From positions 83,845 to 147,844 of the forward strand of contig JAQUTK010000001.1 of assembly GCA_028709785.1 (NCBI GenBank): a DNA stretch of 64,000 bases. Reading direction: 5' to 3'. Within the stretch, counting starts at the first letter, position 1. Every line of letters begins with the position of its first letter. Shown piece by piece: positions 6,537 through 45,845 of the stretch. The DNA is from Bacteroidales bacterium. Lineage in GTDB: Bacteria > Bacteroidota > Bacteroidia > Bacteroidales > JAQUTK01. The position numbers and the translations under genes are program-made. The notes under the pieces were generated by a model. The model did not search any database. It was given only the letters and a program-made list of their open reading frames with translations, and was not told where the DNA came from.

Positions 6537-6605
6537 TAACAACCAGATATAAATAGAAAGGGCCATCCGCATTGGATGGCCCTTTCTATTTATATCTGGT
6601 TGTTA
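6537..6605. terminator. Bidirectional terminator, 32-bp perfect hairpin
   Basis: Bases 6537-6568 pair without mismatch with 6574-6605, leaving a 5-nt loop (GCATT). The core is AGAAAGGGCCATCC, with A/T-rich flanks that give a U-rich tract on either strand. The hairpin begins just after the stop codon of the foldase gene and contains the TAA stop codon of the minus-strand phosphoesterase gene, so it ends both converging operons. Confidence 0.9.
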
Positions 6606-20145: not shown

Positions 20146-21339
20146 ATGAGATACAATAACAACGTAGCACTTCTGCTTGCCGCAACTTTGACCTTGTTCT
20201 CATGCAAGAACAAGAGCTCGGAAGGACAATCTTCTTCCGAACTGAAAGTCTTTAACCTGAGTGTTCCGGAAGATGATCTTCCCACACTGAATCTATCCCA
20301 GCTGGCTGATAGTGTAAGTTATGTAGCGATGGAAACGAACGATGATTGTTTGGCTTCTTTTGCGGTTCCCTGTGAAGGACGCATCTACTCTTTTTCGATA
20401 GCCATAGAAAAAAAAGAAGTTGCTTGCTTTGATATCAATTCCGGTAGGTTCTTGCACAAAATAGGAAGAATGGGTGGATCTGAAGAAGAATATGCTCAAT
20501 TGGGCTCTTTATGGGAAGATCCCATAAATAACCATTTTTACATAAATGCGGGTTCTAAAATAATAAAGTGTTATGATGAAAATGGGAAGTATATTAAAAC
20601 CATTGAGCATAATTATGAGCAAGCGAATAAATTATGGGTATACAACGGTCTACTCTATTTATATTCGGAGATTTATAGTAAAGACACAACGCAATGGGCA
20701 CTCATTGATGTGGAGAGTGAGAAGGTACTATTTGAGACGAAGCATCCTTTTCATGAAACTTTTTCTCTTGGACATAAGGTCGGCCTATCCCTTTTTGAGT
20801 ATCCAAGTAGTGGTTCGAGAGGTGACAAATACTACTATTATCAGCCATCAAGAGATACCGTTTTTTGTCTCCAGGGTAAAATGGTCAGTGCAGTCTGCCG
20901 GATAGATATTGACGGCATCCACGAAAAGAACGGTCAGATTAATCAAGCGGTGTTTTCGAAAGAGGGGCATTATGTGAGTGTTGCCTCATTTGAGATATTT
21001 GATAGCAAGCTTTTGGCTGTATGCAACTATTCAGATGGAGAGAATGAGAGGTGTTTTTATGCGTTGCTCAATCTAAAGGATGGCACCATCTCATACTATG
21101 ATGCACGGATAGTTAATGATCTGGACGGCGGACCGGATATTTTATCTTTGAAGAGTTTTTATGAAAGCCTCTCTGTAGAAGACCTCAAGAATGATGAAGA
21201 GATATACAACAGCTATTTCACCCCGGGGGTAAAAGCGAAATTGAAAGACCAGGAAGGTAAGTTTCAACGGATATTGGAGCCGCTCGAGGGGGATGCCAAT
21301 CCGATAATAAGGATTGTGCATTGGAAGAAGGATGTGTAG
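20146..21339 (+). CDS. 6-bladed beta-propeller lipoprotein (copy A)
   Basis: A 397-residue lipoprotein (lipobox LTLFSC) of the Bacteroidetes 6-bladed propeller family (NHL-like repeats, for instance GRFLHKIGRMGGSEEEY and KCYDENGKYIKTI). The start at 20146 (MRYNNN) is chosen because the paralogue at 22636 begins the same way; the ORF-track start lies inside the previous gene. The C-terminal 220 residues are almost identical to copy B, the last 90 fully so, while residues about 65-150 differ strongly. Function of the family is unknown; surface or periplasmic binding is likely. A TlpA-like gene separates the two copies. Confidence 0.75.
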   Translation: MRYNNNVALLLAATLTLFSCKNKSSEGQSSSELKVFNLSVPEDDLPTLNLSQLADSVSYVAMETNDDCLASFAVPCEGRIYSFSIAIEKKEVACFDINSGRFLHKIGRMGGSEEEYAQLGSLWEDPINNHFYINAGSKIIKCYDENGKYIKTIEHNYEQANKLWVYNGLLYLYSEIYSKDTTQWALIDVESEKVLFETKHPFHETFSLGHKVGLSLFEYPSSGSRGDKYYYYQPSRDTVFCLQGKMVSAVCRIDIDGIHEKNGQINQAVFSKEGHYVSVASFEIFDSKLLAVCNYSDGENERCFYALLNLKDGTISYYDARIVNDLDGGPDILSLKSFYESLSVEDLKNDEEIYNSYFTPGVKAKLKDQEGKFQRILEPLEGDANPIIRIVHWKKDV

Positions 21340-21396
21340 ATAGTTTTGTTGTTCGGACTGATCTATTTGACAATAACGAGGAATATACTATGTAAA

Positions 21397-22635: not shown

Positions 22636-23826
22636 ATGAGATACAATAACAACGCGACACTTCTGCTTGCCGCAACTTTAACCTTGCTCTCATGTAAGAA
22701 TAAGAGCTCGGAAGGACAATCTTCTTCCGAACTGAAAGTCTTTAACCTGAGTGTTCCGGAGAGTGATCTTCCCAAACTGAATCTATCCCAGCTGGCTGAT
22801 AGTGTAAGTTATGTAGCTATGGAAACGAACGATGATTGTTTGGCAACTTTAGCGGTTCCCGGTGAAGGACGCATCTACTCTTTTTCGTTAGCCAAAGAAA
22901 ATAAAGAAGTTGCTTGCTTGGATTTGAATACCGGTCGATTCTTGCACAAAATAGGAAGAATGGGTGGATCTGAAGAAGAATTTTCTGAACTAAGACAATC
23001 AAATGAAGATCCGGTTGACCACCATTTTTATGTAGGTCTGGGCTGTAAAATTAAGTGTTATGATGAGAATGGAAAGTATGTTAAAACCATTAAGCATGAT
23101 TATGAACAGGCGGGTCGCTTTTGGGTATACAACGGTCTGCTCTATTTATATTCGGAGATTTATAGTAAAGACACAACGCAATGGGCACTCATTGATGTGG
23201 AGAGTGAGAAGGTGTTGTTTGAGAAGAAGCATCCTTTTCATGAAACTTTTTCTCTTGGACATAAAGTTGGCCTGTCCCTTTTTGAGAATCCAAGTAGTGG
23301 TTCGATAGGTGACAAATACTACTATTATCAGCCATCAAGAGATACCGTTTTCTGTCTCCAAGGTAAAACGGTCAGTGCGGTCTGCCGGATAGATATTGAC
23401 GGCATCCACGACAAGAACGGTCAGATTAATCAATCTGTATTTTCGAAAGAGGGGCATTATGTAAGTGTTGCCTCATTTGAGATATTTGATAGCAAGCTTT
23501 TGGCTGTATGCAACTATTCAGATGGAGAGAATGAGAGGTGTTATTATGCGTTGCTCAATCTGAAGGATGGCACCATCTCTTACTATGATGCACGTATTGT
23601 TAATGATCTGGACGGCGGACCGGATATTTTATCTTTGAAGAGTTTTTATGAAAGCCTCTCTGTTGAAGACCTCAAGAATGATGAAGAGATATACAACAGC
23701 TATTTCACCCCGGGGGTAAAAGCGAAGTTGAAAGATCAGGAAGGTAAATTTCAACGCATATTGGAGCCGCTCGAGGGGGATGCTAATCCGATAATAAGGA
23801 TTGTGCATTGGAAAAAGGATGTGTAG
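22636..23826 (+). CDS. 6-bladed beta-propeller lipoprotein (copy B)
   Basis: A 396-residue paralogue of copy A with lipobox LTLLSC. The first 60 residues and the last 225 are nearly identical to copy A, down to the nucleotide level and about 20 bp past the stop codon (both read TGTAGATAG). Residues about 65-150 are divergent, including one residue deletion (CKIKCYD versus SKIIKCYD). It begins at 22636, the ATG matching MRYNNN in copy A. The pattern fits duplication with later exchange or local diversification. Role unknown. Confidence 0.75.
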   Translation: MRYNNNATLLLAATLTLLSCKNKSSEGQSSSELKVFNLSVPESDLPKLNLSQLADSVSYVAMETNDDCLATLAVPGEGRIYSFSLAKENKEVACLDLNTGRFLHKIGRMGGSEEEFSELRQSNEDPVDHHFYVGLGCKIKCYDENGKYVKTIKHDYEQAGRFWVYNGLLYLYSEIYSKDTTQWALIDVESEKVLFEKKHPFHETFSLGHKVGLSLFENPSSGSIGDKYYYYQPSRDTVFCLQGKTVSAVCRIDIDGIHDKNGQINQSVFSKEGHYVSVASFEIFDSKLLAVCNYSDGENERCYYALLNLKDGTISYYDARIVNDLDGGPDILSLKSFYESLSVEDLKNDEEIYNSYFTPGVKAKLKDQEGKFQRILEPLEGDANPIIRIVHWKKDV

Positions 23827-23852
23827 ATAGCTTTAATTGTTCGGACTATTAT

Positions 23853-44724: not shown

Positions 44725-44793
44725 AAGAGGTGTCATTTCAGGGAATAGAGAAGGGATATTCGTGGTTTCTTGTGATTTTTGTGGAGGTATTTA

Positions 44794-44824
44794 TTTGCAA
44801 AAACAAAGATTCTGCTTATCTTTG
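44794..44824 (+). promoter_or_regulatory. Promoter of tRNA-His
   Basis: TTTG (44794-44797), 19 nt, TATCTTTG (44817-44824), a perfect consensus promoter 17 bp upstream of the tRNA. Confidence 0.85.
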
Positions 44825-44840
44825 CACCGCAAAACAAAAT

Positions 44841-44915
44841 GGTGGCTGTAGTTCAGTCGGTTAGAGCGTCGGATTGTGGTTCCGAAGGTCGTGGGTTCGA
44901 ACCCCATCAGCCACC
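44841..44915 (+). tRNA. tRNA-His (GTG)
   Basis: Folds as a cloverleaf: acceptor GTGGCTG with CAGCCAC, plus the extra G-1 (44841) opposite C73 that is diagnostic of tRNA-His; D arm GTTC/GAGC; anticodon stem TCGGA/TCCGA with anticodon GTG at 44876-44878; T arm GTGGG TTCGAAC CCCAT. A 3' CCA is not clearly encoded. A consensus promoter lies before it and a terminator after it, so it is transcribed alone. Confidence 0.97.
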
Positions 44916-44927
44916 CACTCAAAAATA

Positions 44928-44958
44928 AAGGTCAGCCTTACAGGTTGGCCTTTTTTGT
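44928..44958 (+). terminator. Terminator of tRNA-His
   Basis: AAGGTCAGCC pairs with GGTTGGCCTT (two G-U pairs), loop TTACA, followed by TTTTGTTTT. Confidence 0.85.
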
Positions 44959-45059
44959 TTTATAACTTTGGAGTCGTTGTAGGCCGGGGCTACCGGTGTT
45001 CAGGTAGACTTTTGCACTACATGCCTATCGGATGGAAAAAACAACCTGAAGAGTTTTTA

Positions 45060-45121
45060 TTTTCATATGGATGCGTTCTTCGTTTCACAGCTGTGAAACG
45101 AAGAACGCATCCATATGAAAA
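45060..45121. repeat. 62-bp perfect palindrome
   Basis: Bases 45060-45090 are the exact reverse complement of 45091-45121, with no spacer; the centre is TTTCACAGCTGTGAAA. Flanks continue as imperfect inverted repeats (CCTGA at 45045 against TCAGG at 45132). It lies in a gap of about 350 bp between the tRNA-His terminator and the DUF4199 promoter, with no gene in the gap. It could extrude as a cruciform or fold as a long RNA hairpin. Confidence 0.95.
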
Positions 45122-45224
45122 CAGAAGAACATCAGGATGCTTTTCTCTATCCTTTATGAACTGAGAGGAAACCGAGTAGAGCCCTTTTTGTTTCTTCCTG
45201 CGAAAAGAATTCCGAATAATGATG

Positions 45225-45232
45225 TATCTTTG
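45225..45232 (+). promoter_or_regulatory. -7 element of the DUF4199 operon
   Basis: TATCTTTG fits TAnnTTTG, 32 bp before the ATG at 45264; no clear -33 TTTG. It probably drives the plus-strand run starting with DUF4199. Confidence 0.6.
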
Positions 45233-45263
45233 CATCTTAAACGCATGAATAATTGTGGAACGG

Positions 45264-45845
45264 ATGAAAAATACCCCGGAAAGTTTATATTCAGTTGCAT
45301 CGAAGCTGGCAATCCCTTTGGCTGCTTACTTCATTGGCTTATTTTTTTTGATGAATCTTGTCTATGAGAAGAGTCAATACTCTCTGATACTCTTTGTCCT
45401 GATTCTTATGGTACCCCTGCTGATTTACAAGTATGCGAAAAAGTATCGGGACATGTTTGCAGGTGGTGTGCTGAGTTACATGAACGCATGGCGTTTCTGT
45501 GCAACTCTTTTTATCTTTGCCAGCCTGTTGTTTTCTTTTTTCATCTATATTTATACCACTTTTCTGAATACAGAGTATGCCTCCTGGATGATGCAGACTT
45601 CCATTCAATATTTGGAACAAATTATCAAACAGGCGCCTAAAGAGAGTGAAGTCGCTTTTGCAAAAGAGTGGCTGGAGAAGACGAAAGAGCTCTCTTTGCC
45701 CACACCTATTGAAATGGCTGTGCAGACATTCTGGATGGTACTGAACGGCGGTTTTATTACAGCTTTAGTGGTTAGCTTCTTCGTAAAGAAAAAGCCACCT
45801 TTCATCGGAGATCAACATAATAATGATACAATAACTGAAGAATAA
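45264..45845 (+). CDS. DUF4199 membrane protein
   Basis: A 193-residue membrane protein with about four transmembrane helices (two near 15-60, one near 70-95, one near 150-175) and a soluble loop between the third and fourth (QYLEQIIKQAPKESEVAFAKEWLEKTK). It matches DUF4199, a Bacteroidetes family that usually precedes a DPM1-like glycosyltransferase, as here (23 bp). A helper role in lipid-linked sugar transfer is possible. ATG at 45264 is preferred to the GTG at 45255. Confidence 0.82.
   Translation: MKNTPESLYSVASKLAIPLAAYFIGLFFLMNLVYEKSQYSLILFVLILMVPLLIYKYAKKYRDMFAGGVLSYMNAWRFCATLFIFASLLFSFFIYIYTTFLNTEYASWMMQTSIQYLEQIIKQAPKESEVAFAKEWLEKTKELSLPTPIEMAVQTFWMVLNGGFITALVVSFFVKKKPPFIGDQHNNDTITEE

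Follow-up and report, generated by a model that had tools for sequence, protein, structure and literature searches.

The exact 62-bp palindrome at positions 45060-45121 of the 64,000-nucleotide stretch of Bacteroidales DNA analysed here (hereafter the window) is not unique: a search of the genome for its core and for the full palindrome showed that it belongs to a dispersed family of repeats. Some 40-50 copies of this family are spread between the genes of the window genome and of a sister species. The original prediction, made from the window sequence alone, had treated the palindrome as a lone and perhaps functional site, and this reading fails. We consider it probable that the palindrome is a copy of a lineage-restricted intergenic foldback repeat of a REP/MITE-like kind, that its arms have been equalised by template switching and that it was inserted recently and is nearly neutral.

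Form and setting of the palindrome

The inverted repeat is exact, with arms of 31 bp, as had been claimed, and about 1e-14 such repeats would be expected by chance in 64 kb. Weaker pairing continues outwards (54-bp arms at 85%, spanning 45037-45144), in agreement with the decayed pairing described for the flanks, and the fold z-scores of the palindrome are -10 as DNA and -11 as RNA. The site is non-coding and was rightly placed between a tRNA terminator and a promoter: the tRNA-His gene and its terminator (44927-44953) lie upstream, and the promoter region of a gene pair encoding a DUF4199 protein and a family-2 glycosyltransferase lies downstream. The features of the site are the following:

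44842-44916, plus strand: tRNA-His (upstream context), conserved in the sister species
44927-44953, plus strand: intrinsic terminator of tRNA-His (context), from the terminator scan, conserved in the sister species
45022-45035, no strand: outermost box TGCCTATCGGATGG, in the family TGCCTATCCGATGG; CCTATCC box, read from the sequence and the family boxes
45038-45051, no strand: outer box AAAACAACCTGAAG, its offset from the tip fixed in several copies, from BLAST matches and family boxes
45060-45121, no strand: perfect palindrome (hairpin stem and loop), an exact inverted repeat
45064-45073, no strand: left arm word CATATGGATG, from the family words; vocabulary CATACGGACG, CATAAGGACG, CATCAGGACG
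45081-45088, no strand: left half of the conserved tip, CGTTTCAC, from the family core
45089-45092, no strand: 4-nt loop AGCT, its length constant and its sequence free among family copies
45093-45100, no strand: right half of the conserved tip, GTGAAACG, from the family core
45108-45117, no strand: right arm word CATCCATATG, mirroring the left word, from the family words
45128-45139, no strand: right outer box AACATCAGGATG, partly matching the left box, from outward pairing and the family
45264-45845, plus strand: DUF4199 membrane protein gene (downstream context)

No T-tract, as an intrinsic terminator would have, follows the palindrome, which ends in AAAACAG, and the terminator scan of the tRNA-His/DUF4199 spacer returned the terminator of the tRNA only and none at the palindrome. 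In Rfam the palindrome has no match above the gathering score, which only the tRNA passes, and a known RNA family was therefore rejected; weak microRNA matches were numerous, as they are for any perfect hairpin. The original prediction had also argued that long perfect palindromes are usually unstable in replication, an argument that is weak for a palindrome of this length (62 bp). In E. coli, gross instability is a property of palindromes from about 150 bp upwards.

Copies and distribution of the family

A BLAST search of the genome to which the window belongs (3.55 Mb in 70 contigs) with positions 45030-45150 recovered about 20 further places, many of them matched in either orientation, as expected of a palindrome. 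The core CGTTTCAC-N4-GTGAAACG occurs about 48 times in this 3.55-Mb genome when up to two mismatches are allowed, compared with 0 for a reversed control, and its occurrences are distributed across many contigs without apparent clustering. At one mismatch or fewer, it is found 38 times in the window genome (G000) and 26 times in the one congener sampled, our sister species (G001, the MAG Bacteroidales bacterium STD2_256), but 0-1 times in each of 391 other genomes of the order, so that the family is limited to one genus among 393 genomes. Of 40 copies fetched, all but two are placed between called ORFs (38), the exceptions being one within a called ORF and one at a contig edge.

A phage or plasmid origin was rejected, as no match was obtained in phages, plasmids or IMG/VR, and so was the idea that the arm words are common words of the genome at large, as they are rare in unselected sequence. 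A search of an open-access paper collection returned no fitting named repeat family for Bacteroidales. The family is apparently undescribed, and is a lineage-specific, palindromic and intergenic variant on the known REP/ERIC/MITE-like kind.

Anatomy of the copies

The copies are built on one hairpin plan, consisting of a conserved 8-bp tip stem, a 4-nt loop, arms drawn from a small vocabulary of words and boxes outside them, with stems that reach 33 bp. The palindrome had been described as having no spacer, which is true of the window copy, but the centre of the family is a 4-nt loop in 42/42 copies inspected in the window genome; the loop AGCT is self-complementary, and the window copy therefore looks like a spacer-less palindrome. 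Loop sequence is otherwise free, self-complementary loops being commoner (10/42) than the expected 1 in 16. Beyond the tip are found arm words such as CATACGGACG, CATCAGGACG, CGTCCTTATG and GCATAGGCATCCG, together with a short linker, and further out the box CCTGAAG recurs at a fixed offset of 36 (29-30 on the other side) and the box CCTATCC/GGATAGG at offsets of 57 and 50, or 40 and 33. Copies mix different words and their arms are unequal in about half of them; judging from the word lists, it is as if half-elements were exchangeable. Some copies (L057, L060) have A-tract / stem / T-tract ends that resemble bidirectional terminators.

A chained relative was also observed at L068, L071, L074, L079, L081 and L083, with half-cores joined to CTGCAG or CTCGAG. 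The chained half-cores repeat about every 22 bp (L074) and adjoin palindromic repeats or lie inside them.

Matching arms and mirrored changes

Over the 20 bases outside the tip, the two arms of a copy are identical at a mean of 0.68 (median 0.80, ten copies exact), compared with 0.47 for arms of different copies, and G-T pairs are rare (9/420 pairs). At six orthologous sites compared between the window genome and the sister species, both arms have changed at 16 paired positions, in 15 cases to an identical base pair, whereas 20,000 shuffles gave a mean of 1.25 and a maximum of 7; this comparison takes in part of G001 and, with two species, the changes are unpolarised. Five mirrored changes fall within ten bases at L076/L200, a cluster that fits block copying better than step-by-step compensation.

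The window contains a second long perfect hairpin at 6537-6605 (arms of 32 bp, loop of 5 nt), which directly follows a gene stop, is apparently single copy and is unrelated to the family. Its ortholog in the sister species has mirrored T-to-C / A-to-G changes at two positions, with unequal outer arms, and the occurrence of such changes in an unrelated hairpin indicates that the process is probably a general one, not confined to the family. Template switching perfects quasipalindromes in E. coli (PMC7202029), and a role for it in the creation and upkeep of hairpins has been put forward (PMC8794818). Much the same pattern would be expected from selection acting on a hairpin that is used on both strands. 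Arm copying is not always efficient, given that the two arms are unequal in about half of the copies.

The window site in the sister species

Both the counterpart of 44780-44958 (tRNA-His and its terminator) and that of 45193-45320 (promoter and gene start) in G001 show 94% identity to the window. Between these conserved flanks, the 234 bp of the window give way in G001 to about 710 bp of unrelated sequence that lacks the window element. A synteny break was rejected, since both the tRNA-His and the downstream flank are conserved. As the flanks are kept and the content of the spacer has been swapped, this spacer is a zone where repeats come and go, and the window copy has no conserved role there. 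The recent origin and the integration niche put forward in the original prediction are both supported by this comparison. The suggestion that survival of the palindrome indicates function finds no support for the window copy, which is absent from the orthologous spacer and sits in the gap that separates a terminator from a promoter. The two species differ in other copies as well, which are absent from the sister at L044 and L061 and mostly missing at L064; at the sites that are empty in the sister (the window site, L044 and L061), divergence of the flanks prevents a target duplication from being recognised.

The G001 spacer carries two other perfect palindromes, one of which is built on a CGTC-REP-like repeat. 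This separate dispersed repeat, CATTGCGGGCTTGACCCGCAATC, resembles CGTC-tagged REPs and is present in both species (L165 2936-3296; L064, L073, L074, L182), and its sister copy at L165 3250-3296, within the spacer orthologous to that of the window palindrome, is lengthened into a perfect hairpin of 47 bp. Elsewhere in the window, 21071-21347 and 23558-23835 both match the same end of the sister contig L131 at 93-94%, which suggests a segment duplicated about 2.5 kb apart.

How the copies may have spread, and other readings

Under the explanation that we favour, copies would spread and then persist where they are least harmful, that is between genes, and the tolerated places would often be near gene 3' ends or in gaps between a terminator and a promoter. 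During replication, the DNA would fold back at the tip and one arm would be templated on the other (quasipalindrome template switching), and the arms would stay complementary because one is copied from the other. The window copy then needs no function: most probably it is nearly neutral and was inserted recently, in a niche that is neutral with respect to transcription. No mobilising enzyme and no exact element ends were found for the family, nor was a long version of the element, every BLAST match of the outer half including the tip or the stem (transposases were examined in part). A REP driven by a RAYT transposase was rejected, because the RAYT domain (Y1_Tnp, PF01797) gave 0 matches in G000 (99.8% complete) and in G001, although an incomplete assembly could hide one; RAYTs are common in the order, being present in 16/21 genomes searched.

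The copies might instead have a function as RNA, be it as bidirectional terminators, as RNase III sites or as stabilisers of mRNA 3' ends, with selection on both strands keeping the arms complementary, and we regard this as unlikely. Nearly all copies are intergenic, L057 and L060 have the terminator-like ends mentioned above, and convergent spacers are over-represented, holding 15/38 copies compared with 19/193 control spacers (p 3e-5); the control, made of spacers over 100 bp in less selected sequence with simple ORF calls, is imperfect because an insertion lengthens its own spacer. The bias is however marginal when convergent spacers are set against divergent ones with equal expectation (15 to 6), and copies in tandem spacers are closer to the upstream stop in 12/17 cases, which is not significant (p 0.14). 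The RNA reading also fits poorly with the gain and loss of copies between the sister species and with the window copy itself, which ends in AAAA without a T-tract, stands after a complete terminator and before a promoter, and is missing from the orthologous spacer.

It is rather improbable, in our estimation, that the family is a self-dispersing hairpin with the half-arm as its unit of heredity. An enzyme would here act on the tip, hairpin replication would perfect any half-arm, copies would exchange arms with one another, and one module made up of tip and inner arm would recur in unrelated phyla (Bacteroidales and a clostridial lineage).

The core could also be the site of a dimeric chromosome-organising protein, similar to parS and dispersed by selection, since its half-site GTTTCAC/GTGAAAC is also that of parS (TGTTTCACGTGAAACA) and the two half-sites are always 4 nt apart. 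We judge this very improbable: a single exact parS of the normal form is present in each genome and lies outside the family (G000:C65:30736, L206; G001:C7:14805, L205), the repeats lie on many contigs without visible clustering, the 4-bp insert would alter the helical phase of the half-sites, and a binding site leaves the long mirrored arms unexplained. Duplication of parS was likewise rejected, as the genuine parS is separate. The family also departs from parS in its 4-nt centre and its ~48 cores, parS having few sites and no spacer. A chimeric fold-back made by the assembly, as short-read assemblies can produce inverted joins, is hardly credible given that the same tip stands at orthologous positions in an independent assembly, that the outer flanks of the window copy differ on its two sides and that it lies 129 kb into a 254-kb contig.

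Returning to the foldback repeat with copied arms, the main interest of the family resides in its mirrored, word-like arms. Two species, some 40 copies and orthologous sites provide a natural dataset in which selection on RNA structure can be told apart from arm copying by template switching, and this bears on how far compensatory changes indicate a functional RNA. The Bacteroidales thereby gain an apparently undescribed palindromic repeat family without a RAYT, with a possible look-alike in Clostridia.

Comparison with known systems

The family resembles the GTAG REP, REPIN and BIME elements in its dispersed extragenic palindromes and mosaic arrays of boxes. By contrast, a RAYT (PF01797) and a GTAG tag belong to those systems and neither was found for the family; no GTAG was seen to recur at the foot of the stems when the aligned copies were inspected.

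CGTC-tagged REPs are short palindromes, dispersed for the most part through the intergenic sequence downstream of genes, with loops of 4-5 nt; they occur in Bacteroidetes among other phyla and have no dedicated transposase (PMC3733652). They are similar to the family in their dispersed intergenic palindromes and short loops, and offer a precedent for palindromic repeats that lack a dedicated transposase (PMC3733652), but the family differs by its stems of up to 33 bp, its variable, word-like arms and its conserved tip. CGTC is present in some of the arm words of the family but is paired there, and no unpaired end tag was identified, the ends of the element being undefined; the CGTC-REP-like repeat CATTGCGGGCTTGACCCGCAATC coexists with the family as a separate repeat in both genomes.

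Bacterial MITEs are about 100-150 bp long, intergenic and strongly palindromic, and have tens of copies (review PMC10969869). The family, like them, is a short, dispersed, non-coding element with inverted repeats, and it resembles ERIC, Correia and the BrickBuilt elements of Porphyromonas in size, intergenic place, palindromy and tens of copies. Neither a related insertion sequence nor a target duplication was found for it and, unlike ERIC and MITEs, its copies share little beyond the tip, the arms varying between copies and being mirrored within each copy.

A similar palindromic repeat comes from the clostridial MAG CAMORF01 (G393; L091, L095, L097) and has the same tip, a 4-nt centre and a nearly identical inner arm, GGACG(C)GTTCTCCGTTTCAC. 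In the scan of named genomes, the inner arm of the long palindromes of this MAG, GGACGGTTCTCCGTTTCAC, matches that of the family except for one base. CAMORF01 has 52 half-sites, many of them in inverted pairs, and is among only 3/291 genomes of the clostridial class in which the half-site is found. Its repeat differs from the family in belonging to another phylum, in having another outer arm (CAGGGGACGG) and in the more variable spacing of the pairs, and on these resemblances of sequence it may possibly be a distant look-alike of the family.
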